DNA of 64,000 bases from Bradyrhizobium sp. CIAT3101 (GTDB lineage Bacteria > Pseudomonadota > Alphaproteobacteria > Rhizobiales > Xanthobacteraceae). The notes beneath the pieces were generated by a model. It was not told the DNA's origin, did no database searches, and saw only the letters and a program-made list of their open reading frames with translations. The stretch's first letter is position 1; each line of letters begins with the position of its first letter. Of the stretch, positions 2-14,924 are shown one piece after another. The DNA is taken from assembly GCF_029714945.1 (NCBI RefSeq), contig NZ_CP121634.1:3245001-3309000 (forward strand), in the 5' to 3' direction. The position numbers and the translations under genes are program-made.

Positions 2-1006
2 GGCACCGGCACAGACGTGGCGGTCACCGGCGGTGCGGCGGCCACGGCGCTCGGTCTCGGCAGCGTGACGCGCGGCAGCGTGCCGTCGACGGCTCCGATC
101 ACAGGTTCAACTGTGCTGAGCGGCACTGCGACGACGGGCGGTCCCTCAGTCCTCTCGACGGCGTTCCAGGCGGGGTCGGCGGGTCCGCCTGCCGTTAGCC
201 CCGATACGATTACGGTGAACGGTCAGACGCTGACCTTTGTCGCCTCGGGTGCCACAGGTCCAAACCAGATCAACGTTACCGACAATGTCTCAACTCTGCT
301 TAGCAAGATCGATCAGCTCACTGGCACCTCGAAACCATCGACCATCCATGGTGGCGTGATCACGATCAACACGGACGATCCCGGCAGCCTCAACATCACG
401 AGCTCGAACAGCACGGCGTTCGCGGCGCTCGGCTTCACGACGTCCCCGGTCACGGCGGCAAAGGCTCCGCTGCGCGTCGGCTCCTCGCCTGCGGGCTCGG
501 CGACGACCTTGGTGGACGGCTCGGCCACGACCGTGAAATGGTACACCGGCAATGACGGTCCGGGGTCGGCGCGCTCGACCGCGGTGGCGCGGGTCGATGA
601 TTCCGTCACGGTGCAATATGGCGCCCAGGCCGACGAGGACGCGATCCGCAAGCAGCTGCAGGCGGTCGCCGTGTACGGCACGTTCTCGACCTCGCCGACC
701 GGGCAATATTCGGGTGCGGCGGTCGCAGCCCTGAGCCTGCGTACCACCCAGGCACTTACCCCGCAGGCGGGCCAACAGAAAATCGAGGACATCCAGACCG
801 ACATCGCGATGGCCCAGAACACCATGAAGGACGCGACCACGCGCCAGACCCAGGCCAAGGCGCAGCTGCAGAACATCGTCGATCAGGCGGAGTCGGCCTC
901 GCCCGACCAGGTGGCGAGCGAAATCCTGTCGCTTCAGAACGCGCTGCAGGCGTCTTACCAGACTACCGCCAACCTCGCGCAGCTCTCGTTGGTCAAGTAC
1001 CTGTAA
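2..1006 (+). CDS. flgL: FlgL-like flagellar hook-filament junction protein, 3' part
   Basis: The frame is open to the left window edge, so only the last ~334 residues are seen; the GTG at 17 is internal. The visible part has a Ser/Thr/Gly-rich beta region with a DTITVNGQTLTF segment followed by an LLSKIDQL helix, the same module found twice in each flagellin downstream. The last ~75 residues are a heptad-rich helix ending in ANLAQLSLVKYL. A C-terminus ending in LSLxxYL is typical of FlgL/HAP3, whereas flagellins here end in SVLQLLR. HAP3 joins the hook to the filament and caps the first flagellin layer. The next operon starts 72 bp downstream. A divergent flagellin is the alternative; the missing N-terminus would decide. 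Confidence 0.72.
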   Translation, partial: GTGTDVAVTGGAAATALGLGSVTRGSVPSTAPITGSTVLSGTATTGGPSVLSTAFQAGSAGPPAVSPDTITVNGQTLTFVASGATGPNQINVTDNVSTLLSKIDQLTGTSKPSTIHGGVITINTDDPGSLNITSSNSTAFAALGFTTSPVTAAKAPLRVGSSPAGSATTLVDGSATTVKWYTGNDGPGSARSTAVARVDDSVTVQYGAQADEDAIRKQLQAVAVYGTFSTSPTGQYSGAAVAALSLRTTQALTPQAGQQKIEDIQTDIAMAQNTMKDATTRQTQAKAQLQNIVDQAESASPDQVASEILSLQNALQASYQTTANLAQLSLVKYL

Positions 1007-1013
1007 GGGCGCA

Positions 1014-1032
1014 TTAAGGCGCCGTTAACCAT
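1014..1032 (+). promoter_or_regulatory. CtrA box upstream of the 1079-6224 operon
   Basis: TTAA at 1014-1017, seven bases, then TTAACCAT at 1025-1032. This is a perfect match to the Caulobacter/rhizobial CtrA consensus TTAA-N7-TTAA, with the ACCAT extension often seen. It lies just after the flgL stop and ~47 bp before the first ATG of the operon, a normal promoter distance. Confidence 0.65.
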
Positions 1033-1078
1033 GCCTGTTTACCTCTTGGTGAGGATTTGAGCGGGGGCGGAGCCGTCA

Positions 1079-1864
1079 ATGTCGGACAAGATGCAACTGG
1101 TGGTGGCTACGCCATGCTTCGGCGGGCAGGTGTCGAGCATTTACGCGAGCTCGATCTTCGCGCTGCAGCGCGCCGTGCACGGCATGTCCAATCTCGGGCT
1201 CAAGGTGCACTTGCGCGACGGCGACGCGCTGATCACGCGCGCGCGGGCCAATCTGGTCGCGATGTTCCTGGACGACCCGGACGCGACGCATTTCCTGTTC
1301 ATCGACGCCGATATCGGCTTCAAGCCGGAGCAGGTCTTCCGGTTGATCGAATCCGGCGCCGACGTCGTCGCCGGCTGCTATCCGATCAAGCGGGTCAATT
1401 GGGACAAGGCAACGCGCGCGATCAAGGCGGGACGGACCGACGTCACGGCGGCCTCGCTCGACTACGTGCTCGAGATCGAGGATCCCGACCGCATCGTGGT
1501 GGTCAACGGCTTTACCCGCGTGCGCTATGCCGGCACCGGTTTCCTGATGATCCGGCGCCAGGCGCTGGAGGCGATGTGCCGCCATCCGGACTATGCCAAT
1601 CTGCAATTCTTCCGCGAGCATTCGCATGACTCGCTGGTCGCGAGCCAGAACCGGTTCGCGCTGTTCGAATGCATGATCGATCCGGCGACCGGCACCTATC
1701 TCTCGGAAGACTTCGCCTTCTGCAAGCGCTGGACCGATATCGGTGGCGAGATCTGGGCCGACATCCAGAGCTCGCTCGACCACGTCGGTCCTTCGGTGTT
1801 CCATGGCGACATCGCCTCGCAATTCGCAGCCGCACCCGCGGTGGCGGCGGCCGACGCGGCGTGA
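1079..1864 (+). CDS. Glycosyltransferase-like protein (GT-A fold, DxD motif)
   Basis: 261 residues, soluble, no signal peptide. It opens with a Rossmann-like strand (LVVATPCFGG), followed by a helix and then HFLFIDADIGF, with the DAD triplet at about residues 76-78 acting as the usual metal and nucleotide-sugar site of GT-A enzymes. Next come GADVVAGCYPIKR and, near the end, an acidic LSEDFAFCKRW segment, which resembles the catalytic-base region of this fold. The acceptor and sugar cannot be read from sequence. It is first in a four-gene operon that starts right after flgL and is followed 10 bp later by a PLP enzyme. That position suggests modification of flagellin or of a surface glycan, but this is inference. 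Confidence 0.68.
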   Translation: MSDKMQLVVATPCFGGQVSSIYASSIFALQRAVHGMSNLGLKVHLRDGDALITRARANLVAMFLDDPDATHFLFIDADIGFKPEQVFRLIESGADVVAGCYPIKRVNWDKATRAIKAGRTDVTAASLDYVLEIEDPDRIVVVNGFTRVRYAGTGFLMIRRQALEAMCRHPDYANLQFFREHSHDSLVASQNRFALFECMIDPATGTYLSEDFAFCKRWTDIGGEIWADIQSSLDHVGPSVFHGDIASQFAAAPAVAAADAA

Positions 1865-1874
1865 GCCTGTCGGG

Positions 1875-3479
1875 ATGAGCACCGGCGCATCCCACCTCGC
1901 AGATATCGAGCGAGCGTCCGAGGGCGGCTCGCGCTATCGCTTGCGCGATCTCTTCACGCCGCTGGATACGCTGCTCGTCTCCGGCGGCGACCAGCGGCTG
2001 GCGCTCGACCCGAGGGAGCGCGTCAATGCCTATGGCTGCGCGCCGTCGCCCGAACCCGAGATCTGGAATTTCGCCTCATCGACTGCGTCGACGATCTCGC
2101 AAGCAGGCTATGATCGAGCCGCGCTGGCGCGCGAGGAGCTGGTCCACAAATCGCTGTTCGACGAAGTCGAGATCGCCTTCGACCGGCGCTGCGAGGACCT
2201 GCGCGACGAACTGCGCGGACACTTCCAGCTCTCGCCGCGCGTCGATGTCGTGTTCTCGCCATCGGGTACCGATTCCCAGCTCCATGCCTTGTTCCTGGCG
2301 CACGCGGTGCTTGGCGGACCGCCGGTGTCCATCGTGGTCGGGGCCGACCAGACCGGCAGCGGAACGGCTCATACCGCACGCGGGCACCATTTCAGCACGA
2401 TGACGGCGAGCGGCGTTGCCGTGCGCAAGGACGCTGCGATCGCGGGTCTTTCCGGTGACAGCATCGCGGTACCGCTGCTCGACGCCACGTCCGGCCTCGC
2501 GATGCGCACCGACGCGGATGCCGAGGTCATGCGTGCAATCGAGGACAGCCTCGCGCAAGGCCGGCGCGTTTTGTTGCACATTATGGATTCGTCAAAGCTC
2601 GGCTGGCGTGCGCCGAGCGCCGCCTGTCTCGATGAGATCGCGCGGCGCTGGCCGCGCAAGGTTCAGGTCGTCGTCGATGCCTGTCAGGCGCGGCTTGGCC
2701 GTCGCCGGCTGCGCTCCTATCTCGATCGCGGTTACATGGTGCTGATCACCGGCTCGAAGTTCTTCGGCGGTCCTGCCTTCAGCGGTGCACTGCTGGTGCC
2801 GAAAGGACTGTCGCGCGCGCTCGACCGGATTGAAGGGATCGCGCCGGGCTTCTTCGATTATGCCGGCCGCTGCGACTGGCCGATGATGTGGACGGCGCTG
2901 CGCTCGCGCTTCGAACGCCGTCCGAATTTCGGCCAGTGGCTGCGCTGGGAAGCGGCGCTGGCCGAGATCGGCAACTACTACGCCGTGCCGGGGGCGTTCC
3001 GTGCCAAGGCGGTCGCCGAGCTTGCAGCCGGCATCGGCAGCATGATCGCGCTGTCGCCGTCGCTGCGCGCCGTACCGGCGGCCTTCGACGAGGCGGGCGT
3101 GGACGACGAGGAATTCGCGCGGCCTACGATCTTTCCATTCACGCTGCTTCGCAACGGCAAGCCGGTATCCATCGCCGATACCAGCGCCGTTCATCGCGCC
3201 CTGGCGCGGGACATGAACGACGACATCGTCGGGAGCGTGGCGGACCGGCAGGTTGCCGCACAACGCTGTCTCGTCGGCCAGCCGGTGCGGTTGGCGCAAC
3301 CGGACGGCGCGCCGCAGGCTGCGTTGCGCCTTTGCATCGGCGCGCGGCTCGTCACCGACGCCTGGTCGCCCGACGGCGCGCAAGCGCAACACAATGTGCA
3401 GCATATCCTCGATCGCATCGCCCACGTCCTGGTGAAGACCGAGCTGCTGCTTGACCATACCGCCGCTGTGCCGGCGTAG
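1875..3479 (+). CDS. PLP-dependent fold-type I enzyme, aminotransferase/desulfurase-like, unknown substrate
   Basis: 534 residues from ATG 1875; an upstream in-frame start at 1743 lies inside the glycosyltransferase gene and is rejected. Fold-type I marks are visible: a phosphate-binding SPSGTDSQLHAL turn (~128-139), the VVVDACQARLGR strand with the Asp (~268) that pairs with the PLP pyridine nitrogen, and ITGSKFFGGPAFSG with the probable Schiff-base Lys (~295). This layout is closest to class V aminotransferases and cysteine desulfurases, but the long N- and C-terminal extensions make it larger than either. The C-terminal ~200 residues carry no motif I recognise. It is translated with the genes on both sides and probably acts on the same intermediate as the ATP-grasp enzyme and decarboxylase that follow. 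Confidence 0.7.
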   Translation: MSTGASHLADIERASEGGSRYRLRDLFTPLDTLLVSGGDQRLALDPRERVNAYGCAPSPEPEIWNFASSTASTISQAGYDRAALAREELVHKSLFDEVEIAFDRRCEDLRDELRGHFQLSPRVDVVFSPSGTDSQLHALFLAHAVLGGPPVSIVVGADQTGSGTAHTARGHHFSTMTASGVAVRKDAAIAGLSGDSIAVPLLDATSGLAMRTDADAEVMRAIEDSLAQGRRVLLHIMDSSKLGWRAPSAACLDEIARRWPRKVQVVVDACQARLGRRRLRSYLDRGYMVLITGSKFFGGPAFSGALLVPKGLSRALDRIEGIAPGFFDYAGRCDWPMMWTALRSRFERRPNFGQWLRWEAALAEIGNYYAVPGAFRAKAVAELAAGIGSMIALSPSLRAVPAAFDEAGVDDEEFARPTIFPFTLLRNGKPVSIADTSAVHRALARDMNDDIVGSVADRQVAAQRCLVGQPVRLAQPDGAPQAALRLCIGARLVTDAWSPDGAQAQHNVQHILDRIAHVLVKTELLLDHTAAVPA

Positions 3480-3495
3480 CCCTCATAGGTGTGAG

Positions 3496-4731
3496 ATGTT
3501 GCATCCGCTTGCCGCGCCGAACTTTGCCGATCGTATCGGCTTTGCGCATTTGACCCGCCAGGCCTTCGAGGGCATCGATCTGCACCCGTTGCGCGAGCGG
3601 CTGCTGGCGCGGATCGCGGAGGGGACGGCGCAGGCTGGCGAGGGATTGGATCTGTCGCTGATCGCCCAGCTGATGGGCGAGAAGGAAGCAGGCCTCGTGA
3701 TCCAGTCCGAGGTGCTCTCCTTCCATCAATTGTTTCGCACGCCGTCTGCGGCGCCGAAGCCCGGCTTGCGCGTGCTTGCGCTTGCGGCCGATATCGACAT
3801 GGGCGGCAACACGCCGATCGAATTCTTGCTCGAAGGCTCCGATATCGAGCTCCTGACGCTCTATGTGACCAAGGACAAGGGCCTGCCGGAAGCGCTGCCT
3901 GAGCACGACGTTGCCATCGTGGTCGCATCCGACTCCGAGGAATGCCGCGAAGCGCTGGCGATGATCGAGAAAGCCGCGCCGCGCTGGCCGCGACCGCTGC
4001 TCAATCGCCCCGAGTTGATCGGCAATCTCGATCGCGACAAGCTCTACCGGTTGCTGGCTGATATCCCGGGTCTCGACATTCCCGTGACCGCCAACGCAAC
4101 GCGTGCGCAATTGACGGCTCTCTCCGAAGGGCGGATCGCTTGCGCGGAGATCTCGGGCGAATTGCACTTTCCGATGATCGCACGGCCGCGCGGCACGCAT
4201 GCCGGCGTCGGGCTTGCGAAGGTTGACGATGCTGCGGCGCTCGCGGCCTATCTTGCCGAACGGCAGGAGCTGGATTTCTTTGTGGCGCGTTTCGTCAACT
4301 ACGCGAGCCCCGACGGACTCTTTCGCAAGATCCGGCTCACCATGGTCGACGGCAAGCCTTATGCCTGCCACATGGCGATCGCCGATCGCTGGGACATCTG
4401 GTATCTCAACGCGTACATGGCGTTCAGCGAAGAGAAGCGCGCCGAAGAAGCCATCTTCATGCAAGACTTCGATCGCGCCTTCGCTGCACGTCACCAGAAT
4501 GCGCTCGACGAAATGAGCCGGCGCGTCGGCCTCGATTACTTCATCGTCGATTGCGCCGAGAACCAGAACGGCGAGCTCCTGGTGTTCGAGGCCGACAACA
4601 CGGCCGTCGTGCACAACATGGATTCGCCAGTGGTGTTTCCGTACAAGCCGCCGCAGATGCGCAAGATCTTTGCCGCGTTCACCGCGATGCTGTCGCGGCA
4701 TGCCAAAGCCTGCGTGGGGAGTGCAGCATGA
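3496..4731 (+). CDS. ATP-grasp superfamily ligase, unknown substrate
   Basis: 411 residues from ATG 3496, 16 bp after the preceding stop. Residues ~90-180 form an alpha/beta pre-ATP-grasp domain (LRVLALAADIDMGGNTPIEF). The ATP-grasp part follows, with a glycine-rich loop at MIARPRGTHAGVGL (~228-240), then YFIVDCAENQNGELLVFEADN, where Asp352, Glu365 and Asn368 would hold the metal ions and ATP. ATP-grasp enzymes join a carboxylate to an amine, thiol or similar nucleophile through an acyl phosphate. With two PLP enzymes beside it, a plausible reaction is forming an amide with an amine made by the decarboxylase. Its stop overlaps the next start (ATGA), so the two are translationally coupled. Confidence 0.72.
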   Translation: MLHPLAAPNFADRIGFAHLTRQAFEGIDLHPLRERLLARIAEGTAQAGEGLDLSLIAQLMGEKEAGLVIQSEVLSFHQLFRTPSAAPKPGLRVLALAADIDMGGNTPIEFLLEGSDIELLTLYVTKDKGLPEALPEHDVAIVVASDSEECREALAMIEKAAPRWPRPLLNRPELIGNLDRDKLYRLLADIPGLDIPVTANATRAQLTALSEGRIACAEISGELHFPMIARPRGTHAGVGLAKVDDAAALAAYLAERQELDFFVARFVNYASPDGLFRKIRLTMVDGKPYACHMAIADRWDIWYLNAYMAFSEEKRAEEAIFMQDFDRAFAARHQNALDEMSRRVGLDYFIVDCAENQNGELLVFEADNTAVVHNMDSPVVFPYKPPQMRKIFAAFTAMLSRHAKACVGSAA

Positions 4732-6224
4732 ACGAGATCATCCGCAACGCGCAGGCATCTGTCACGAACGGATCGCTCGATCCGCAGGACTGGAGCGAGT
4801 TTCGTGCACTCGCCCATCGCATGCTGGACGAGGCGATCGACGGCATCGCCAATGTCCGCGCGCGGCCGGTCTGGCAGCCGATCCCCGACGAGGTTCGCGC
4901 GGCAGTCCGGACCGACGTGCCGCGCGAAGCGACGTCTCTCGCCGACGTCTATCGCGAATTCTCCGAGCATGTCGCGCCTTACGCGACCGGCAACGTCCAT
5001 CCCGGCTTCATGGGCTGGGTGCACGGCGGCGGCACAGCCGTCGGCATGGTCGCGGAGATGCTTGCAGCAGGCCTCAATGCCAATCTCGGCGGACGCGATC
5101 ACATGCCGATCGAGGTCGAGCGTCAGATCGTCGCGTGGATGCGCGGCTTGTTCGGCTTTCCGGAAGGTGCGAGCGGCATTTTCGTCACCGGTACGTCGAT
5201 GGCCAATCTGATGGCGGTGCTGGTGGCGCGCACCAGCGCGCTCGGTACGCTGGCGCGCCAACACGGCATCGGCAATGACGGGACGTTGCTCACGGCCTAT
5301 GCGTCGAAGGCCGCGCATGGCTGTATCTCCCGCGCGATGGACATCGCTGGCTTCGGCACCGACGCGCTGCGCAAGATTGGTGTCGACACCGATCATCGCA
5401 TCGATGTCGCCGCGCTGCGCGCGCAGATCGCGATCGATCGCGAGGTCGGCTTCAAGCCGTTCCTGGTCACGGCATCGGCCGGCACGGTCGACATCGGCGC
5501 GATCGACGATCTCAAGGCAATCGCGGACCTGTGCCGCGAAGAGGGCATCTGGTTTCACGTCGATGGTGCCTTTGGTGCGCTCGCGATCCTCTCGCCCGAG
5601 CTTGCGCCGCTGCTCGCTGGCATCGAGCTTGCGGATTCGATCGCGCTCGACTTCCACAAATGGGGGCAGGTGCCTTATGACGCCGGCTTCCTGCTGGTGC
5701 GTGACGGTGAACGGCATCGGCAGGCCTTTGCACAGCCGGCGGCCTATCTGAGCCGCGAGGCGAGGGGGCTTGCGGCCGGTGCTGTCTGGCCGTGCGATCT
5801 CGGTCCGGATCTGTCGCGCGGTTTTCGTGCGCTGAAGACGTGGTTCACGCTGAAGACATTCGGCACCGACCGGCTGGGTGAGGTGATCGCACGCAGCTGC
5901 GCGCTCGCGCGATATCTCGAGACGCGCGTGCTCGCCGAGCCCAGGCTCGAATTGCTCGCGCCGGTCAATCTCAACATCGTCTGCTTCCGCTATCGCGCCG
6001 ACGATGCGATCAATCGGGAGATTGTCGCCGATGTCCAGGAGTCCGGCATTGCCGCACCGTCAAGCACGACGCTGGACGGCAGGTTCGCGATCCGCGCGGC
6101 GATCGTCAATCATCGTACCGCCGAGACGGACATCGACGCGCTGGTGTCGGCCGTGATCAAGTTCGGCACGCGGCGGACCGGCGGATTGATCGAGGTCGCT
6201 GCGCCGCCGCTCGCGGCGCAGTGA
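4728..6224 (+). CDS. Group II PLP-dependent amino acid decarboxylase
   Basis: 498 residues. The start ATG at 4728 overlaps the ATP-grasp stop. It has the full signature of the aromatic-amino-acid/glutamate decarboxylase family: HPGFMGWVHGGGT near the active site (~91-103), FVTGTSMANLMA for phosphate binding, an AAHGCI histidine (~197), FHVDGAFGA with Asp279 for the pyridine nitrogen, and ALDFHKWGQVPYDAG with Lys311 forming the Schiff base. The family removes CO2 from an L-amino acid (Trp, Tyr, Dopa, Glu, 2,4-diaminobutyrate) to give an amine; the substrate is not clear here. It is last in the operon, followed by a strong hairpin at 6247-6273. Together with the ligase it suggests an amine is made and then attached. 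Confidence 0.82.
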   Translation: MNEIIRNAQASVTNGSLDPQDWSEFRALAHRMLDEAIDGIANVRARPVWQPIPDEVRAAVRTDVPREATSLADVYREFSEHVAPYATGNVHPGFMGWVHGGGTAVGMVAEMLAAGLNANLGGRDHMPIEVERQIVAWMRGLFGFPEGASGIFVTGTSMANLMAVLVARTSALGTLARQHGIGNDGTLLTAYASKAAHGCISRAMDIAGFGTDALRKIGVDTDHRIDVAALRAQIAIDREVGFKPFLVTASAGTVDIGAIDDLKAIADLCREEGIWFHVDGAFGALAILSPELAPLLAGIELADSIALDFHKWGQVPYDAGFLLVRDGERHRQAFAQPAAYLSREARGLAAGAVWPCDLGPDLSRGFRALKTWFTLKTFGTDRLGEVIARSCALARYLETRVLAEPRLELLAPVNLNIVCFRYRADDAINREIVADVQESGIAAPSSTTLDGRFAIRAAIVNHRTAETDIDALVSAVIKFGTRRTGGLIEVAAPPLAAQ

Positions 6225-6296: not shown

Positions 6297-6734
6297 TCAG
6301 GCGGCCGAGCTGACGTCACCCTTGATGCCATCCTTTGGGTGGGTGGCTTCGAATTGCTCACGCAGCTTGTCTTCATAGGCGATCAGCTTGCGGGCATCCT
6401 TCAGCGCCCGGTAGAGATCGCCGCTCATGATGTGGTTGTTGATCTCTTCGATGATCGGCCAGGCGCTTGGCACGGCGGTGACGATGTCGCGCACCAGGTT
6501 GAAATAGGTGCCGTGCTGGCCCTGCGGGTCCGGCGAGATGTACATGAGCTGGACCGCCAGATAGACGAGCTTGGCGGGCGTATCCGCGGTCTCGGGCGTG
6601 AGGATATCGCGCTCGCGCAGGATCGGCACGTTCTCGCCGTCGATCAGAAGGCGGGCGCGCTGGTCGGTGTTGGTGATGACGCAGTTCCCGACAATAATGC
6701 GTTCGTGCGGCCTGAGCTCGACCTTGAGGGCCAT
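6297..6734 (-). CDS. flbT: FlbT, post-transcriptional regulator of flagellin synthesis
   Basis: 145 residues from ATG 6734, preceded by a GGAGAAC ribosome site; a longer start at 6809 has no such site and does not fit the family. It begins MALKVELRPHERIIVGN and carries LLIDGENVPILRERDIL, both hallmarks of FlbT. In Caulobacter FlbT binds the flagellin mRNA 5' leader and promotes its decay until the hook is finished, opposed by FlaF. Here flbT lies just upstream of the four flagellin genes on the opposite strand, and flaF lies just beyond them, so the regulator pair brackets its likely targets instead of sitting side by side. Confidence 0.93.
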   Translation of the reverse strand: MALKVELRPHERIIVGNCVITNTDQRARLLIDGENVPILRERDILTPETADTPAKLVYLAVQLMYISPDPQGQHGTYFNLVRDIVTAVPSAWPIIEEINNHIMSGDLYRALKDARKLIAYEDKLREQFEATHPKDGIKGDVSSAA

Positions 6735-6963: not shown

Positions 6964-7037
6964 ATTCTCGGCGCCACGGTCCGCCAGTCGCTGGATCAAT
7001 CAAGATCCATGCAGACGCGTAACAGTAGCGTCGTTTA

Positions 7038-7050
7038 CCAGAAAGGTAAC
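7038..7050 (+). promoter_or_regulatory. Conserved flagellin mRNA leader motif, fliC1
   Basis: CCAGAAAGGTAAC ends 6 bp before the ATG and contains the ribosome site. The same element (CCAGAAGGGTAAC/G) precedes fliC2 at 9781 and fliC3 at 12398 but not fliC4. The leader is the region FlbT acts on in Caulobacter, so this is a candidate target for FlbT/FlaF. Confidence 0.45.
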
Positions 7051-7056
7051 AGAGTT

Positions 7057-9348
7057 ATGTCCGGTATCGTCCTCTCGGCATCGGTTCGTCAGAACCTCCT
7101 CTCCCTCCAGTCCACCGCTGATCTTCTCGCCACCACGCAGAACCGTCTGTCGACGGGCAAGAGCGTGAACTCGGCCCTGGACAATCCGACCAACTTCTTC
7201 ACCGCCCAGTCGCTCGACAATCGCGCCAGCGACATCAACAACCTCCTCGACAACATCGGCAACGGCGTGCAGGTGCTGCAGGCTGCCAACACCGGCATCA
7301 CCTCGCTGCAGAAGCTCGTCGACTCCGCCAAGTCGATCGCCAACCAGGCGCTGCAGACCACCGTCGGTTACTCCACCAAGTCCAACGTCTCCACCACGAT
7401 CTCCGGTGCGACGGCGGCCGACCTGCGTGGCACCACCTCGTTTGCGAGCACGGTTGCGAGCAGCAACGTCCTGTTCGACGGCACCGCCGGCGGCACGCAC
7501 GCTGCGAGCGGCACCACGACCCTCGGCGCGACCCAGGGCGTTCTCACCGGTGCGGCGGCAACCGCCGGCGACGGCTCGACGGCCATTACGGCGGCGATCA
7601 CGCTGCTCGGCACCGGTGCCGCGACCGCGACCGGCCTGGTCGGCAACGCCCAGCCCTCGGACGGCGACACGCTGACCGTCAACGGTCACACGATCACCTT
7701 CCGCTCCGGCGTGGCCCCGACCTCCTCGACCGTTGCGAGCGGCCTTGGCGCCAGCGGCAACATCACCACCGACGGCGCGGGCAACTCGACCATCTATCTG
7801 GGTGACACCACGACCCAGAAGGGTACGGTCGGTGACCTCGTCACCGCGATCGACCTTGCCAGCGGCGTGAAGGTTGCCTCGATCACCGCCGGTTCGGCGA
7901 CGATCTCCCAGAGCGCCAATGCGACCGCCGTTTCGGACGTCGGTGTCACGACGGCCAGCAAGCTCACGCTGCACAGCTCGAGCGGTGCCGATCTGAGCAT
8001 CACCGGCAAGGCCGACTTGCTGAAGGCCCTCGGCCTGTCCACCGCCACCGGCGGCGGCAACGCGACGGTGAACGTGAACCGCACCACCAGCTCCGGCTCG
8101 CTGGGTCAGCAGATCCAGGACGGCTCGACGCTGAATGTCGACGGTCATGTCATCACCTTCAAGAACGGCGCCGTTCCGGGCTCCACGGGTGCTCCGGCGA
8201 TCCCGAGCGGCTCCGGTGTCAGCGGCAACGTCCTCACCGACGGTGCCGGCAACTCGACGGTCTATCTGTCGTCCGGCACGATCTCCGACGTGCTGAACGC
8301 GATCGACCTTGCCTCCGGCGTGCAGACCGCGACCATCGCGGCCAACGGCACAGCGACGCTGAAGACCGCGACCGGCCAGACCAACTCGTCGATCAACGCC
8401 TCGGGCCAGCTCAAGGTCTCGACCGGCGTGAATGCCGACCTGTCGATCACCGGCACGGGCAATGCGCTGAACGTGCTCGGCTTCGCCGGCAACACCGGCA
8501 CCGGGACCGCGTTCACCGCGGCCCGTACCTCGGGCATCGGCGGCATTGCCGGCAAGACCTTGACCTTCTCCTCCTTCAACGGCGGCACGGCGGTCAACGT
8601 TACCTTCGGCGACGGCACCAACGGCACGGTCAAGACGCTCGATCAGCTCAACTCGCAGCTCCAGGCCAACAACCTGTCCGCGACGATCGACGCCAACGGC
8701 CTGCTGACGGTCTCGAGCACCAATGACTACGCGTCCTCAACCATCGGTTCGAGCGCCGCGGGCGGTGTCATCGGTGGTACGCTGACCTCGGCGCTGACGT
8801 TCTCGACGGCTTCCAGCCCCGTCCAGGACACGGTTGCCCAGACGGCTCGCGCCAACCTGGTGTCTCAGTACAACAACATCCTGAGCCAGATCGACTCGAC
8901 CTCGCAGGACTCCTCGTTCAACGGCGTGAACCTGTTGAACGGCGACCAGCTCAAGCTGACCTTCGACGAGACCGGCAAGTCGAGCCTGAACATCACGGGT
9001 GTGACGTACAACTCGAAGGGCCTGGGTCTTGCCTCGTTGACCAACGGTGTCGACTTCATCGACAACGCTGCGACCAACAAGGTGCTGACCAACCTGAACG
9101 CCGCGTCGAGCACGCTGCGCTCGGAAGCGTCGACCCTCGGTTCGAACCTCTCGGTGGTGCAGGTTCGTCAGGACTTCAACAAGAACCTGATCAACGTGCT
9201 GCAGACCGGCTCGTCCAACCTGACGCTGGCCGACACCAACGTCGAAGCGGCGAACAGCCAGGCGCTGTCGACCCGTCAGTCGATCGCGGTCTCCGCGCTG
9301 TCGCTGGCCAACCAGTCGCAGCAGAGCGTGCTGCAGCTGCTCCGCTAA
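7057..9348 (+). CDS. fliC1: Flagellin FliC1 (763 aa)
   Basis: Start chosen at MSGIVLSASVRQNLLSLQ, the flagellin N-terminus shared by all four copies; an in-frame ATG at 7009 would add 16 unrelated residues. Residues 1-~110 are the N-terminal D0/D1 helices (DLLATTQNRLSTGKSVNSALDNP). The centre (~110-560) is a Gly/Ser/Thr/Ala-rich surface region with two repeats of a DGxTLxVxGHxITF...AIDLASGV module and a third GKTLTFSSFNGG module. The last ~130 residues are the C-terminal helices ending SVLQLLR. There are no cysteines and very few aromatic residues. At 763 residues it is about 2.5 times a typical rhizobial flagellin. Nearly identical to fliC2 from 7331 to 8544. Confidence 0.95.
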   Translation: MSGIVLSASVRQNLLSLQSTADLLATTQNRLSTGKSVNSALDNPTNFFTAQSLDNRASDINNLLDNIGNGVQVLQAANTGITSLQKLVDSAKSIANQALQTTVGYSTKSNVSTTISGATAADLRGTTSFASTVASSNVLFDGTAGGTHAASGTTTLGATQGVLTGAAATAGDGSTAITAAITLLGTGAATATGLVGNAQPSDGDTLTVNGHTITFRSGVAPTSSTVASGLGASGNITTDGAGNSTIYLGDTTTQKGTVGDLVTAIDLASGVKVASITAGSATISQSANATAVSDVGVTTASKLTLHSSSGADLSITGKADLLKALGLSTATGGGNATVNVNRTTSSGSLGQQIQDGSTLNVDGHVITFKNGAVPGSTGAPAIPSGSGVSGNVLTDGAGNSTVYLSSGTISDVLNAIDLASGVQTATIAANGTATLKTATGQTNSSINASGQLKVSTGVNADLSITGTGNALNVLGFAGNTGTGTAFTAARTSGIGGIAGKTLTFSSFNGGTAVNVTFGDGTNGTVKTLDQLNSQLQANNLSATIDANGLLTVSSTNDYASSTIGSSAAGGVIGGTLTSALTFSTASSPVQDTVAQTARANLVSQYNNILSQIDSTSQDSSFNGVNLLNGDQLKLTFDETGKSSLNITGVTYNSKGLGLASLTNGVDFIDNAATNKVLTNLNAASSTLRSEASTLGSNLSVVQVRQDFNKNLINVLQTGSSNLTLADTNVEAANSQALSTRQSIAVSALSLANQSQQSVLQLLR

Positions 9349-9377
9349 CAAGCGGACGACGTCGCAAGCAAGATCCG

Positions 9378-9410
9378 GCGGCGGGGCTTCGGCCCCGCCG
9401 CTTTCTTTTT
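9378..9410 (+). terminator. Terminator of fliC1
   Basis: 10-bp stem GCGGCGGGGC / GCCCCGCCGC with a TTCG tetraloop, followed by TTTCTTTTT. The same hairpin and ~30 bp before it recur after fliC2. Confidence 0.9.
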
Positions 9411-9482
9411 GCGTGGCATTACGGTGTCGCTGCCTCGGATAAAGACGATGCCTTCGAAGGCAAGCAGTTTGTGTGCTGCGCG

Positions 9483-9608
9483 TTATGGTTGACAAATGGC
9501 AAATGTCCTGCCGCTGCACCAACGCGCTTAGATGTAGACAATGCAATTGAATGCAGCGAATTGCTCACTCTGAGTTATGGTTGACAAGTGGCAAACGCGC
9601 CGCCGCTG
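9483..9608 (+). repeat. Two imperfect direct repeats upstream of fliC2
   Basis: A ~36-bp unit beginning GTTATGGTTGACAAATGGCA and ending CCGCTGCA occurs near 9482-9518 and again near 9574-9610. A shorter form beginning GTTATGGTTAATGG lies before fliC3 near 12203. Each copy contains TTGACAARTGGCAAA, so each could be a -35-like site or a weak sigma-54-like TGGCA-N7-TGC, but both lie ~200-300 bp from the ATG. They may be activator sites or leftovers of duplication. The 9349-9798 gap holds the fliC1 terminator, these repeats and the conserved motif at 9706, and no gene. Confidence 0.45.
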
Positions 9609-9705
9609 CATCGAAAAGCATCATTCGATCATGACGATAGAAGCGGGCGCGATGCGGTGCGAAGCGCGCATATGGTGAATCCAAGCAAGGACTCGCGCGA
9701 CACGC

Positions 9706-9720
9706 TTCATGCTTTGTTAG
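9706..9720 (+). promoter_or_regulatory. Conserved upstream motif of fliC2
   Basis: TTCATGCTTTGTTAG, 79 bp before the ATG; differs by one base from the fliC1 copy. See 6949. Confidence 0.35.
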
Positions 9721-9780
9721 CCCTCAACGTTCACCGTCCCGGCATCGATTAATCCTAATCGAAGTTTGTTGCGTTGCGTA

Positions 9781-9793
9781 CCAGAAGGGTAAC
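9781..9793 (+). promoter_or_regulatory. Conserved flagellin mRNA leader motif, fliC2
   Basis: CCAGAAGGGTAAC just before the ATG, containing the ribosome site AAGGG. Confidence 0.45.
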
Positions 9794-9798
9794 ACTCA

Positions 9799-12090
9799 AT
9801 GTCCGGTATTGTTCTCTCCTCATCGGTTCGTCAGAACCTCCTCTCCCTCCAGTCCACCGCTGATCTTCTCGCCACCACGCAGAGCCGTCTGTCGACGGGC
9901 AAGAGCGTGAACTCGGCTCTGGACAATCCCACCAACTTCTTCACCGCCCAGTCGCTCGACAATCGCGCCAGCGACATCAACAACCTGCTCGATGGCATCG
10001 CCAACGGCGTGCAGGTGCTGCAGGCTGCCAACACCGGCATCACCTCGCTGCAGAAGCTGATCGATAGCGCGAAGTCGATCGCCAACCAGGCGCTGCAGAC
10101 CACCGTCGGTTACTCCACCAAGTCCAACGTCTCCACCACGATCTCCGGTGCGACGGCGGCCGACCTGCGTGGCACCACCTCGTTTGCGAGCACGGTTGCG
10201 AGCAGCAACGTCCTGTTCGACGGCACCGCCGGCGGCACGCACGCTGCGAGCGGCACCACGACCCTCGGCGCGACCCAGGGCGTTCTCACCGGTGCGGCGG
10301 CAACCGCCGGCGACGGCTCGACGGCCATTACGGCGGCGATCACGCTGCTCGGCACCGGTGCCGCGACCGCGACCGGCCTGGTCGGCAACGCCCAACCCTC
10401 GGACGGCGACACGCTGACCGTCAACGGTCACACGATCACCTTCCGCTCCGGCGTGGCCCCGACCTCCTCGACCGTTGCGAGCGGCCTTGGCGCCAGCGGC
10501 AACATCACCACCGACGGCGCGGGCAACTCGACCATCTATCTGGGTGACACCACGACCCAGAAGGGTACGGTCGGTGACCTCGTCACCGCGATCGACCTTG
10601 CCAGCGGCGTGAAGGTTGCCTCGATCACCGCCGGTTCGGCGACGATCTCCCAGAGCGCCAATGCGACCGCCGTTTCGGACGTCGGTGTCACGACGGCCAG
10701 CAAGCTCACGCTGCACAGCTCGAGCGGTGCCGATCTGAGCATCACCGGCAAGGCCGACTTGCTGAAGGCCCTCGGCCTGTCCACCGCCACCGGCGGCGGC
10801 AACGCGACGGTGAACGTGAACCGCACCACCAGCTCCGGCTCGCTGGGTCAGCAGATCCAGGACGGCTCGACGCTGAATGTCGACGGTCATGTCATCACCT
10901 TCAAGAACGGCGCCGTTCCGGGCTCCACGGGTGCTCCGGCGATCCCGAGCGGCTCCGGCGTCAGCGGCAACGTCCTCACCGACGGTGCCGGCAACTCGAC
11001 GGTCTATCTGTCGTCCGGCACGATCTCCGACGTGCTGAACGCGATCGACCTTGCCTCCGGCGTGCAGACCGCGACCATCGCGGCCAACGGCACGGCGACG
11101 CTGAAGACCGCGACCGGCCAGACCAACTCGTCGATCAACGCCTCGGGCCAGCTCAAGGTCTCGACCGGCGTGAATGCCGACCTGTCGATCACCGGCACGG
11201 GCAATGCGCTGAACGTGCTCGGCTTCGCCGGCAACACCGGCACCGGGACCGCGTTCACCGCGGCCCGTACCTCGGGCATCGGCGGCATCACCGGCAAGAC
11301 CTTGACCTTCTCCTCCTTCAACGGTGGCACGGCGGTCAACGTCACCTTCGGCGATGGCACCAACGGCACAGTCAAGACGCTCGATCAGCTCAACTCGCAG
11401 CTCCAGGCCAACAACCTGACCGCGACGATCGACGCCAACGGCCTGCTGACGGTCTCGAGCACCAATGACTACGCGTCCTCGACCATCGGTTCGAGCGCCG
11501 CGGGCGGCGTCATCGGTGGTACGCTCACCACTTCGCTGACGTTCTCGACGGCGTCTACGCCCACGCAGGATACTGTTGCCCAGACGGCCCGTACCAATCT
11601 GGTCAGCCAGTACAACAACATCCTCCAGCAGATCGACTCGACCTCGCTCGACTCGTCCTTCAACGGTGTCAACCTCTTGAACGGCGATCAGCTCAAGCTG
11701 GTGTTCGACGAAACCGGAAAGTCAAACCTCAACATCACCGGCGTGACCTACAACTCGAAGGGTCTCGGCCTTGCCGCACTGACCGGCGGTGTCGACTTCA
11801 TCGACAACGCCGCGACCAACAAGGTGCTGACCAACCTGAACTCCGCGTCGAGCACGCTGCGTTCGGAAGCCTCCGCCTTGGGTTCGAACCTGACGATCGT
11901 GCAGGTTCGTCAGGACTTCAACAAGAACCTGATCAACGTGCTGCAGACCGGCTCGTCGAACCTGACGCTGGCCGACACCAACGTCGAAGCGGCGAACAGC
12001 CAGGCGCTGTCGACCCGTCAGTCGATCGCGGTCTCTGCGCTGTCGCTGGCCAACCAGTCGCAGCAGAGCGTGCTGCAGCTGCTCCGCTAA
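9799..12090 (+). CDS. fliC2: Flagellin FliC2 (763 aa)
   Basis: Same length and architecture as fliC1: N-terminal D0/D1 helices, two DUF1522-like modules and a third beta module in the centre, C-terminal helices ending SVLQLLR. From 10073 to 11286 it matches fliC1 7331-8544 with only three base differences that I could find (at 10395, 10959 and 11094), all silent. Outside this stretch the two genes differ much more, at both amino acid and silent positions (for example LVFDETGKSNLNI against LTFDETGKSSLNI). This pattern points to recent gene conversion of the centre rather than a simple recent duplication of the whole gene. It has its own leader motif and terminator. Confidence 0.95.
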   Translation: MSGIVLSSSVRQNLLSLQSTADLLATTQSRLSTGKSVNSALDNPTNFFTAQSLDNRASDINNLLDGIANGVQVLQAANTGITSLQKLIDSAKSIANQALQTTVGYSTKSNVSTTISGATAADLRGTTSFASTVASSNVLFDGTAGGTHAASGTTTLGATQGVLTGAAATAGDGSTAITAAITLLGTGAATATGLVGNAQPSDGDTLTVNGHTITFRSGVAPTSSTVASGLGASGNITTDGAGNSTIYLGDTTTQKGTVGDLVTAIDLASGVKVASITAGSATISQSANATAVSDVGVTTASKLTLHSSSGADLSITGKADLLKALGLSTATGGGNATVNVNRTTSSGSLGQQIQDGSTLNVDGHVITFKNGAVPGSTGAPAIPSGSGVSGNVLTDGAGNSTVYLSSGTISDVLNAIDLASGVQTATIAANGTATLKTATGQTNSSINASGQLKVSTGVNADLSITGTGNALNVLGFAGNTGTGTAFTAARTSGIGGITGKTLTFSSFNGGTAVNVTFGDGTNGTVKTLDQLNSQLQANNLTATIDANGLLTVSSTNDYASSTIGSSAAGGVIGGTLTTSLTFSTASTPTQDTVAQTARTNLVSQYNNILQQIDSTSLDSSFNGVNLLNGDQLKLVFDETGKSNLNITGVTYNSKGLGLAALTGGVDFIDNAATNKVLTNLNSASSTLRSEASALGSNLTIVQVRQDFNKNLINVLQTGSSNLTLADTNVEAANSQALSTRQSIAVSALSLANQSQQSVLQLLR

Positions 12091-12118
12091 CAAGCGGACG
12101 ACATCGCAAGCAAGATCC

Positions 12119-12151
12119 GGCGGCGGGGCTTCGGCCCCGCCGCTTTTTTTT
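12119..12151 (+). terminator. Terminator of fliC2
   Basis: GCGGCGGGGC / GCCCCGCCGC stem with TTCG loop followed by eight T. The hairpin and flanking bases match the fliC1 terminator, showing that the repeated unit includes the 3' end. Confidence 0.92.
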
Positions 12152-12320
12152 GTTCGCCATCGGCATTCGAGGAGGCGGGAGCGATCGAAAAAGTAACCAG
12201 CGGTTATGGTTAATGGAGAGTAAGCGCGCAGAATCGCCAATGATTTCAGGCCGATTGCGAGGCCTGGCAACGCGTCACAATGGTTTATGGTGAACCGGCG
12301 CTTATGACAGTGAGACGCGT

Positions 12321-12335
12321 TTCACCCTTTGTTAG
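12321..12335 (+). promoter_or_regulatory. Conserved upstream motif of fliC3
   Basis: TTCACCCTTTGTTAG, 80 bp before the ATG, running into GCCATG. See 6949. Confidence 0.35.
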
Positions 12336-12397
12336 CCATGTCAGCGCACCCTGTGGCCGTCACTCGATCCAGAAGCGATCGAACGAAGACGCGTAAG

Positions 12398-12410
12398 CCA
12401 GAAGGGTAAG
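12398..12410 (+). promoter_or_regulatory. Conserved flagellin mRNA leader motif, fliC3
   Basis: CCAGAAGGGTAAG, 4 bp before the ATG; third copy of the leader motif. Confidence 0.45.
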
Positions 12411-12414
12411 AGTC

Positions 12415-14706
12415 ATGTCCGGTATTGTTCTCTCTGCGTCGGTTCGTCAGAACCTGCTCTCTCTCCAGTCCACCGCCGATCTTCTCGCCACCACACAGAA
12501 CCGTCTGTCGACCGGCAAGAGCGTCAATTCGGCTTTGGACAATCCCACCAACTTCTTCACCGCCCAGTCGCTCGACAATCGCGCCAGCGACATCAACAAC
12601 CTCCTCGATGGCATCGCCAACGGCGTGCAGGTGCTGCAGGCTGCCAACACCGGCCTGACCTCGCTGCAGAAGCTGATCGACAGCGCCAAGTCGATCGCCA
12701 ACCAGGCGCTGCAGACCACCGTCGGCTACTCCACCAAGTCCAACGTTTCCACCACTATCGCGGGTGCGACGGCGGCGGACCTGCGCGGCACGACCAGCTT
12801 TGCCAGCGCTTCTGCTTCCAGCAACGTGCTCTATGACGGCACGGCCGGCGGCATCCACGCTGCGAGCGGCACCACGACCCTCGGCGCGACCCAGGGCGTT
12901 CTCACCGGTGCGGCGGCAACCGCCGGCGACGGTTCGACCGCCATTACCGCGGGCATCACGCTTCTCGGCACTGGTGCGGCGACCGCGACCGGCCTGGTCG
13001 GCAACGCCCAGCCCTCGGACGGCGACACGCTGACCGTCAACGGTCACACGATCACCTTCCGCTCCGGCGTGGCGCCGACCTCCGCCACGGTTGCGAGCGG
13101 CCTTGGCGCCAGCGGCAACATCACCACCGACGGCGCGGGCAACTCGACCATCTATCTGGGCGACACCACGACGCCGAAGGGGACGGTCGGTGACCTCACC
13201 ACCGCGATCGACCTCGCCAGCGGCGTGAAGGTTGCCTCGATCACCGCCGGTTCGGCGACGATCTCCCAGAGCGCCAACGCGACCGCCGTTTCGGACGTCG
13301 GTGTCACGACGGCCAGCAAGCTCACGCTGCACAGTTCGAGCGGTGCTGATCTCAGCATCACCGGCAAGGCCGACTTGCTGAAGGCCCTCGGCCTGTCCAC
13401 CGCCACCGGCGGCGGCAACGCGACGGTGAACGTGAACCGCACCAGCAGCTCCGGCTCGCTGGGTCAGCAGATCCAGGACGGCTCGACGCTGAATGTCGAC
13501 GGCCATGTCATCACCTTCAAGAACGGCGCCGTTCCGGGCTCCACGGGTGCTCCGGCGATCCCGAGCGGCTCCGGCGTCAGCGGCAACGTCCTCACCGACG
13601 GCAACGGCAACTCGACGGTCTATCTGTCGTCCGGCACGGTCTCCGATGTGCTGAACGCGATCGACCTCGCCACCGGCGTGCAGACCGCGACCATCAACGC
13701 CGCAGGCGCTGCGACGCTGAAAACCGCCACCGGCCAGTCCAACTCGTCTATCAACAGCTCTGGCCAGCTCCGGCTTGCAACCGGCATCAATGCAGATCTC
13801 ACGATTACTGGGTCGGGCAATGCGCTGAACGCACTTGGCCTTGCCGGCAACACCGGGACGGCGACCGCTTTTACCGCGGCCCGCACCTCGGGTATCGGCG
13901 GCATTGCCGGCAAGACCTTGACCTTCGCCTCCTTCAACGGTGGTACGGCGGTCAACGTTACCTTCGGCGACGGCACCAACGGCACGGTCAAGACGCTCGA
14001 TCAGCTCAACACGCAGCTCCAGGCCAACAACCTGGCCGCGACGATCGACGCCAACGGTCAGCTGACCATTACGGCATCCAACGACTACGCGTCCTCGACG
14101 ATTGGCTCGACCACTGCGGGCGGTGCGATCGGTGGTACGCTCACCACCGCGCTGACTTTCTCGACGGCATCGACTCCCGTCCAGGATGCGGTGGCGCAGA
14201 CCGCTCGTGCCAATCTGGTGTCTCAGTACAACAACATCCTGAACCAGATCGACACGACCTCGCAGGACTCCTCGTTCAACGGCGTGAACCTGTTGAACGG
14301 CGACCAGCTCAAGCTGGTGTTCGACGAGACCGGCAAGTCGAGCTTGAACATCACCGGCGTAACCTACAACTCGAAGGGTCTGGGCCTCGCTGCGCTGACC
14401 GTCGGCGTCGACTTCATCGACAACGCCGCGTCGAACAAGGTGCTGACCAACCTGAACGCTGCGTCGAGCACGCTGCGGTCCGAGGCTTCCGCACTCGGTT
14501 CGAACCTCTCGGTGGTGCAGGTACGTCAGGACTTCAACAAGAACCTGATCAACGTGCTGCAGACCGGCTCGTCCAACCTGACCCTGGCCGACACCAACGT
14601 CGAAGCGGCGAACAGCCAGGCGCTGTCGACCCGCCAGTCGATCGCGGTCTCGGCGCTGTCACTGGCCAACACCTCGCAGCAGAGCGTGCTTCAGCTGCTT
14701 CGCTAA
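12415..14706 (+). CDS. fliC3: Flagellin FliC3 (763 aa)
   Basis: Same 763-residue plan as fliC1 and fliC2. The first half of the centre is nearly identical to them (LGATQGVLTGAAATAGDGST through the TASKLTLHSS segment). Residues ~425-480 differ more (INAAGAATLKTATGQSNSSI; LRLATGINADLTITGSGNALNALGLAG), giving a mosaic look consistent with patchy gene conversion among the tandem copies. The C-terminus has ANTSQQSVLQLLR where the other copies have ANQSQQ. It has its own leader motif, an upstream gap of 324 bp without a gene, and its own terminator, so it is probably transcribed alone. Confidence 0.95.
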   Translation: MSGIVLSASVRQNLLSLQSTADLLATTQNRLSTGKSVNSALDNPTNFFTAQSLDNRASDINNLLDGIANGVQVLQAANTGLTSLQKLIDSAKSIANQALQTTVGYSTKSNVSTTIAGATAADLRGTTSFASASASSNVLYDGTAGGIHAASGTTTLGATQGVLTGAAATAGDGSTAITAGITLLGTGAATATGLVGNAQPSDGDTLTVNGHTITFRSGVAPTSATVASGLGASGNITTDGAGNSTIYLGDTTTPKGTVGDLTTAIDLASGVKVASITAGSATISQSANATAVSDVGVTTASKLTLHSSSGADLSITGKADLLKALGLSTATGGGNATVNVNRTSSSGSLGQQIQDGSTLNVDGHVITFKNGAVPGSTGAPAIPSGSGVSGNVLTDGNGNSTVYLSSGTVSDVLNAIDLATGVQTATINAAGAATLKTATGQSNSSINSSGQLRLATGINADLTITGSGNALNALGLAGNTGTATAFTAARTSGIGGIAGKTLTFASFNGGTAVNVTFGDGTNGTVKTLDQLNTQLQANNLAATIDANGQLTITASNDYASSTIGSTTAGGAIGGTLTTALTFSTASTPVQDAVAQTARANLVSQYNNILNQIDTTSQDSSFNGVNLLNGDQLKLVFDETGKSSLNITGVTYNSKGLGLAALTVGVDFIDNAASNKVLTNLNAASSTLRSEASALGSNLSVVQVRQDFNKNLINVLQTGSSNLTLADTNVEAANSQALSTRQSIAVSALSLANTSQQSVLQLLR

Positions 14707-14738
14707 TAAGTAGCTGAAATTACTGAATAAAATTGAGT

Positions 14739-14768
14739 GGCGGGGCTTTTGCCCCGCCGCTCTCTTTT
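14739..14768 (+). terminator. Terminator of fliC3
   Basis: 8-bp stem GGCGGGGC / GCCCCGCC around TTTT, followed by a CTCTCTTTT tract. Confidence 0.85.
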
Positions 14769-14815
14769 GCGTTTTGAGACCGGGAAGGGCGTACACCAGC
14801 CATTAACCCTATCTC

Positions 14816-14834
14816 TTAAACCGGCGTTAACCAT
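14816..14834 (+). promoter_or_regulatory. CtrA box upstream of fliC4
   Basis: TTAA at 14816-14819, seven bases, TTAACCAT at 14827-14834: a perfect full site, ~90 bp before the ATG. The other three flagellin genes lack a full site, so fliC4 appears to be controlled differently. Confidence 0.65.
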
Positions 14835-14924
14835 ACTTTAAAGGACAGGTCCTAAAACTGGACAAACGCCCGCTTCCAGACCCGCGCGGCCGATTCGTAT
14901 CCGGTTCAAGAGGAAGACCTGCCA

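Follow-up and report, generated by a model that had tools for sequence, protein, structure and literature searches.

Two described systems stand closest to the one reported here. In Shewanella oneidensis, the five-gene operon sfmABCDE is required for flagellin mass and the modification is O-linked; its last gene encodes SfmE, a 412-amino-acid (aa) ATP-grasp protein suggested to be a carboxylate-amine ligase, whose loss shifts the flagellin mass (PMC3765264, available text). In Clostridioides difficile type B, flagellin carries an O-glycan with an amide-linked taurine/alanine/glycine cap, and according to the available text mutants in a PF13535 ATP-grasp protein and in GT3 lack the extension (PMC5207245, PMC5207246). 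In the genus Bradyrhizobium, a review of rhizobial motility suggests possible glycosylation for the subpolar flagellum of B. diazoefficiens, and its available text names no Bradyrhizobium genes for that (PMC8429497). This report addresses a four-gene operon beside the flagellin genes of Bradyrhizobium sp. CIAT3101, located in a stretch of 64,000 nucleotides (the window; contig NZ_CP121634.1, positions 3,245,001 to 3,309,000) that forms part of a 9.37-Mb single-contig genome (G000). The operon encodes a glycosyltransferase-like (GT-like) protein, a pyridoxal-phosphate (PLP) enzyme, an ATP-grasp ligase and a PLP-dependent decarboxylase. It is probably a flagellin-modification operon of the subpolar flagellum, and as such a candidate gene set for the suggested glycosylation.

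The gene set differs from both known systems. In the available text on Sfm, SfmA has a NeuB domain, SfmB a thiamine-pyrophosphate-binding domain, SfmC is a reductase and SfmD a methyltransferase, and none of the five genes encodes a PLP enzyme or a PLP decarboxylase; SfmE bears an ATP-grasp_4 domain (printed as "ARP-grasp_4"), whereas the Bradyrhizobium ATP-grasp protein matches no Pfam family (PMC3765264). A Pfam scan of the four proteins found neither a NeuB-like SfmA counterpart nor a methyltransferase. The type B system of the Gram-positive C. difficile employs PF00535 glycosyltransferases, FemAB-like and cyclodeaminase-like proteins and an FdtB-like transaminase, and the available text does not mention a decarboxylase (PMC5207245, PMC5207246). 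The initial annotation knew of no flagellin-modification system with this set of enzymes; our search of freely accessible literature likewise found no description of one, nor any paper that names bll5848-bll5851; the one paper that came up for flagellin together with all these enzyme classes deals with archaeal fusions. In the literature examined, as far as its available text goes, a flagellin with an amide cap derived from an amino acid would be without a described Gram-negative example.

The features of the locus are as follows. Handles beginning with G denote genomes, with L fetched loci or stretches, and with P homologues of the PLP enzyme.

1014-1032, plus strand: CtrA-type box TTAA-N7-TTAACCAT, about 50 bp 5' of the first start codon
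1079-1864, plus strand: GT-A-like glycosyltransferase candidate, 261 aa; D76-x-D78 invariant; PHROG_1574 at 6e-32
1875-3479, plus strand: PLP enzyme, fold-type-I and class-V-aminotransferase-like by modelled fold, 534 aa; D268 and K295 invariant
3496-4731, plus strand: RimK/LysX-type ATP-grasp ligase by modelled fold, 411 aa, with an N-terminal helical part; D353, E366 and D368 invariant
4728-6224, plus strand: group II PLP decarboxylase, 498 aa; PF00282 at 5e-65; H197, D279, K311 and Y340 invariant
17-1006, plus strand: flgL (C-terminal part), encoding the hook-filament junction protein and adjoining the operon on its upstream side; NCBIfam NF004669 at 8.9e-12 and TIGR02550 at 5.2e-5, both below cut-off; conserved position
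6297-6734, minus strand: flbT, flagellin regulator, the downstream neighbour; PF07378 at 5.7e-42, NF009432 above cut-off
7057-17219, plus strand: tandem array of four flagellins belonging to the subpolar (thick) flagellum, presumed to be the target; open reading frames of about 763 aa each

The genes are tightly packed. The first ATG lies 72 bp after the end of flgL at 1006, gaps of 10 bp and 16 bp follow, and an ATGA overlap joins the ATP-grasp gene to the decarboxylase gene. A check of reading frames and motifs reproduced this layout, together with the distance to flgL and the box, exactly to the base as first annotated. The flagellin frames run at 7009-9348 (start read as 7057), 9799-12090, 12415-14706 and 14925-17219; the first two served as search queries, and the third and fourth were assigned from length and place.

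The conservation of this arrangement is the first line of evidence. A sample of 41 genomes was searched, 25 of them genus genomes with the window's own genome included, and a close relative of the ATP-grasp protein (E<1e-100) was present in 15 of these 25. The loci of the 14 other carriers were opened, and 13 repeat the order seen in the window, the ATP-grasp and decarboxylase genes being flanked by flgL on one side and flbT/flagellin on the other; the PLP gene is a mere remnant in G009 and the GT gene a remnant in G013. The remaining carrier, G015, has a variant (L034:7250-13956) that reads flgL, ATP-grasp, a TPR plus GT9-like protein, GT, a second ATP-grasp, decarboxylase, flbT and flagellin, with no PLP match within that stretch. 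The other 10 of the 25 genomes are free of the operon. All 10 contain flbT; flgL is directly followed by flbT in nine (L183-L191) and by the flagellins and flbT in G023 (L192), and no replacement of at least 90 aa was found at the flagellar genes in any of the ten. Since the operon is either present at one site or absent without replacement, it behaves as a cassette of that single site.

A wider scan returned 137 ATP-grasp relatives, and all locus counts refer to the best 80 of these 137. The loci were picked by the ATP-grasp gene, which is therefore found in 80 of 80 by construction, and several contigs are identical to those of the 41-genome sample. The full order flgL-GT-PLP-ATP-grasp-decarboxylase-flbT(-)-fliC occurs in 72 of the 80. 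Among the eight deviating loci, three have no PLP gene, one has no GT, three have no matched neighbour (L074, L087, L117) and one has flbT elsewhere. The position beside flgL and the flagellins, for which the initial annotation had proposed a check, is thus fixed within the genus, and a chance grouping of the four genes is excluded by this conservation. Among named relatives, the scan placed Bradyrhizobium sp. CCGUVB4N nearest, its ATP-grasp protein being 99% identical (L039). In USDA110, the subpolar flagellins FliC1-4 correspond to Bll5843-46 and the hook protein to Bll5854, as given in the available text (PMC4823718, PMC10888616). The PLP homologue P0020 bears the label Bll5850, in agreement with the operon's position relative to that hook protein and those flagellins. 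By this label and the published numbers, the four USDA110 counterparts would be bll5851, bll5850, bll5849 and bll5848. As to labels, 79 of the 80 loci are named Bradyrhizobium or Bradyrhizobiaceae and one Frankia; this last locus (L041, titled Frankia sp. RB7) matches in its entirety at 93-98% identity, and the label seems wrong or the sample mixed. A tie between the operon and long flagellins was considered and rejected as a strict rule, for the sizes at or near the locus overlap: about 380-440, 535 or 752 aa in operon-free genomes, and about 763, 812 or 535 aa in operon-bearing ones.

The CtrA-type box is conserved together with the operon. It reads TTAA-GGCGCCG-TTAACCAT, and its start lies 7 bp 3' of the flgL stop codon. 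With at most one mismatch, TTAA-N7-TTAACC occurs seven times in the window (four of them perfect), whereas 100 shuffles gave 0.12 on average. Among the 78 loci with flgL and GT matches, 72 carry TTAA-N7-TTAACCAT and four TTAA-N7-TTAA, and in the other two the GT is truncated and the box unreadable. Conservation across 71 distinct intergenic sequences is 99.6% for the 12 box positions, 90.7% for the spacer and 90.0% for the remaining 52 columns; several columns 3' of the box are near-invariant too, so the box is not the sole conserved element there. In 12 stretches from operon-free genus genomes (L183-L194), the sole perfect box lies between flagellins (L192). CtrA is termed the master regulator of the B. 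diazoefficiens subpolar flagellins in the available text of PMC10888616. The conserved TTAA-N7-TTAA box thus makes the operon a putative member of the CtrA regulon, with CtrA binding and control predicted from the motif; the box reported earlier is real, and the control that it was taken to indicate stays putative. The other perfect TTAA-N7-TTAACC boxes in the window are at 14816, 38914 and 45368, one of them immediately 5' of the fourth flagellin.

The second line of evidence comes from outside the genus: distant Alphaproteobacteria show an independent tie of the same families to flagellin, flbT and flaF. G100 is arranged as PLP(-), flagellin(+), flbT(+), flaF(+), ligase(-), decarboxylase(-), and the flagellar genes are confirmed by Pfam. 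In G440 and G442 (L217, L218), relatives of the GT (55-57% identity) stand between flagellin and flbT-flaF, with module genes on other contigs. Module or GT genes thus occur at the flagellin locus in independent lineages. Additionally, G442 carries a sulfotransferase (PF13469, L218:3446-4528) between flagellin and GT, and a TPR/glycosyltransferase-like protein after flaF. The relatives G437 and G436 (L224, L225) have flagellin-flbT-flaF with no GT in between, followed by a TPR/GT41 protein and a Maf glycosyltransferase. G462 also has a GT-like relative, a more distant one (38%, L221:7244-8446), beside a flaF-like gene (29%).

Co-occurrence points the same way. A class-wide sample of 385 genomes was searched, and the association tests on it ignore phylogeny and use cut-offs picked after the hits had been seen. 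In one set of 13 genomes with matches to ATP-grasp or PLP, all 13 have flagellin, vs 235 of 385 across the sample. Of the 25 sample genomes with any ATP-grasp match, 20 have flagellin, so that most carriers of these families possess it but not all. Outside the genus, 18 of the 19 genomes with a ligase at E<1e-20 have flagellin (p 0.0008) and 12 of the 19 have FlbT (p 0.009); for the non-genus genomes with the closest ligase relatives the FlbT figure is 6 of 6 (two of one genus) vs 133 of 383 (p 0.0016). In a separate count, all 18 genomes matched flagellin (PF00669), comprising eight with module genes and the 10 operon-free genus genomes, the match of G187 being below cut-off. From gene order and co-occurrence, the link between operon and flagellin is likely.

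The PLP enzyme, ligase and decarboxylase form one module, because they are contiguous in distant lineages and are fused to one another pairwise. In relatives of G100 from its taxonomic order, the trio is contiguous in L202 (PLP-ligase-decarboxylase with two ATGA junctions), L203 and L200, and the ligase-PLP pair recurs in L199 and L201. A Rhizobium tumorigenes plasmid (L230) has the ligase, PLP (34%) and decarboxylase (57%) genes contiguous. The fusions are of two kinds: L151 has a decarboxylase-ligase fusion in a single 884-aa frame with the PLP gene adjoining, and P0138 is a PLP-ligase fusion (45% to the window's PLP enzyme over 507 aligned columns, 49% to the ligase over 396), as is P0142 and, judged by reading, P0165. 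In the class sample, 25 genomes are matched by the ATP-grasp profile and 11 by the PLP profile (six strongly); outside the genus, a ligase at E<1e-20 accompanies three of the four strong PLP matches vs 19 of 383 overall (Fisher p 0.0004). ATP-grasp relatives of 29-37% identity with an N-terminal extension (L035-L038, L156-L159), confirmed as TPR in L036, had no partner matched alongside and were not counted as the system. The ligase relative on a Paraburkholderia plasmid (L229:7941-10306) overlaps a gene whose annotation is SerC-type transaminase and which may substitute for the PLP enzyme.

Of the four proteins, three (GT, PLP and ATP-grasp) match no Pfam family. The decarboxylase is the exception, with 220 bits to PF00282 vs a cut-off of 27. 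Like the group II PLP decarboxylases (aromatic amino acid, diaminobutyrate (DABA) and DfoJ lysine enzymes), it retains the catalytic residues: aligned to solved enzymes in the PDB, K311, H197, D279 and Y340 are invariant in eight sequences, and we take them to be the PLP lysine in HKW, the stacking histidine, the aspartate and the catalytic-loop tyrosine, respectively. However, it forms a separate subfamily, adjoining or fused with an ATP-grasp partner, at 53-65% identity in the non-Bradyrhizobium rows of the eight-sequence alignment, and it reaches the cut-off for none of the 14 NCBIfam models listed. The ATP-grasp protein has a modelled ATP-grasp fold closest to RimK, LysX and ArgX. It differs from these ligases in its 14-22% identity, its additional N-terminal helical part and its lack of a Pfam match, and it scores 17 bits against the RimK model TIGR00768 (cut-off 143.4). 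Its residues D353, E366 and D368 (alignment numbering, which is ATG numbering + 1) are invariant in 11 sequences and presumably constitute the metal-binding D...E-x-(N/D) motif near the C-terminus.

The PLP enzyme has a modelled fold-type-I, class-V-aminotransferase-like fold with the expected PLP lysine and aspartate (K295, D268), and it matches neither PF00266 nor any other Pfam family at E 0.1. FdtB-like transaminases belong to a different PLP family. The GT-like protein gave no Pfam match even at E 5, and its D76 and D78 (D-x-D) are invariant in seven aligned sequences. Distant relatives of it occur in 65 of 50,697 phage records, 43 of them from Synechococcus phages; among the 15 phage relatives listed, one is named putative glycosyltransferase and one polysaccharide biosynthesis. 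Searching the PDB by sequence, with the PLP enzyme or the GT as query, yielded nothing of use. The enzyme classes of the initial annotation therefore stand for the decarboxylase, by family match, and for the PLP and ATP-grasp proteins, by modelled fold. Sugar transfer by the first protein was worded too firmly: the D-x-D motif and the gene context suggest that it may move a sugar.

The chemistry that we infer is the making of an amine, its joining in an amide bond and the transfer of the product to flagellin. The decarboxylase would convert an amino acid, perhaps prepared by the PLP enzyme, to a primary amine. The RimK-type ligase would join this amine to a carboxylate at the expense of ATP, and the GT-like protein would put the product, or a sugar bearing it, on serine or threonine residues of flagellin in the cytoplasm before export. 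This would take place in the cell-cycle phase when CtrA switches the flagellar genes on. The part played by ATP-grasp proteins in the Shewanella and C. difficile systems makes such a mechanism workable. We tentatively extend this to the possibility that the trio is a new mobile amide-forming biosynthetic module, solo in some bacteria; in Bradyrhizobium, under CtrA control and paired with a glycosyltransferase of a new family, it would cap flagellin with an amide derived from an amino acid.

Several observations weigh against flagellin modification. With flgL, flbT and flagellin as queries (flaF added for L199-L203 and L230), no flagellar match was found beside the trio in L200, L202, L203 and L230, the fusion and PLP gene in L151, the ligase pairs in L148, L152, L199 and L201, or the lone ligases in L149 and L153. 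A PLP relative (33%) overlaps a very large nonribosomal peptide synthetase gene on Sinorhizobium medicae pSMED03 (L227:8992-10527), and two long PLP relatives are named proteins of Flavobacterium metagenome-assembled genomes. The GT was not found in G436, G437, G054, G187, G118, G396, G062 and G365, each of which has at least one module gene, and G100, with its module genes, has GT fragments only. Within the 80 loci, the GT is intact in 74 and the PLP gene in 74; one or the other is broken or missing in 11 (five among the 72 of full order), and the decarboxylase is intact in all 80. The ligase-flagellin association does not hold at every cut-off, since it weakens to 18 of 23 (p 0.058) when the faintest matches (E<1e-3) are included, and modification of Bradyrhizobium flagellin is not reported in the available text of the literature examined. 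A flagellum-only system is excluded by the trio found alone elsewhere, as on the Rhizobium tumorigenes plasmid. The trio is rather a general module, not inherently flagellar, that was recruited to the flagellin locus at least twice. The initial annotation had taken wide occurrence away from flagellar genes as speaking against its proposal; this applies in part, to the trio and to the PLP relative in the nonribosomal-peptide cluster, whereas the operon is fixed at the flagellin locus in the genus.

The same occurrences on the Rhizobium plasmid and in relatives of G100, as well as the PLP relative adjoining the peptide synthetase, favor a small molecule, free or secreted (an amine or an amide conjugate), that is co-expressed with the flagellum, the flagellar locus being a mere address, and an MFS transporter gene (PF07690) stands immediately before the ATP-grasp-decarboxylase pair in L148. 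We nevertheless consider a small molecule unlikely, given the place fixed in 72 of 80 loci, the GT between fliC and flbT in two distant genomes, and the trio surrounding fliC-flbT-flaF in G100. The last two arrangements also bear on the target. Instead of flagellin, the substrate could be the hook and hook-associated proteins (FlgE, FlgL) or a different surface polymer, as the first gene of the operon comes immediately after flgL, and FlgL has about 120 aa in common with an upstream-encoded protein read as the hook protein; this is very unlikely, because the GT adjoins flagellin rather than flgL in L217 and L218 and the trio of G100 flanks flagellin. RimK, LysX and ArgX couple amino groups to carboxylates that belong to proteins or carrier proteins. 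With these as its closest folds, and with no GT family match, the ligase might act on the protein itself, forming an amide on a side chain or the C-terminus of flagellin; the GT-like protein would then be no glycosyltransferase. The invariant D-x-D of the GT-like family and the islands in which its relatives accompany glycosyltransferase-like genes (L218) make this the least probable of the alternatives, and flagellin modification by transfer of an amine-derived product is preferred.

The PLP and ATP-grasp members match no Pfam family, so naming the product of the trio would annotate proteins in many Alphaproteobacteria. The surface chemistry of flagellin may be relevant to plant immune recognition and root competition. 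Around the PLP relative of L227, genes for SagB-type and phosphopantetheinyl transferase proteins were also seen. Upstream of the operon, the FlgL C-terminal query matches a second site at roughly 60% across 120 aa (L021:15076-15408, L021:10381-11259), and we read this site as the hook gene; judged from these matches, FlgL and the presumed hook protein have a domain in common. Such second matches of the FlgL query appear alike in most of the flagellar loci opened within the genus.

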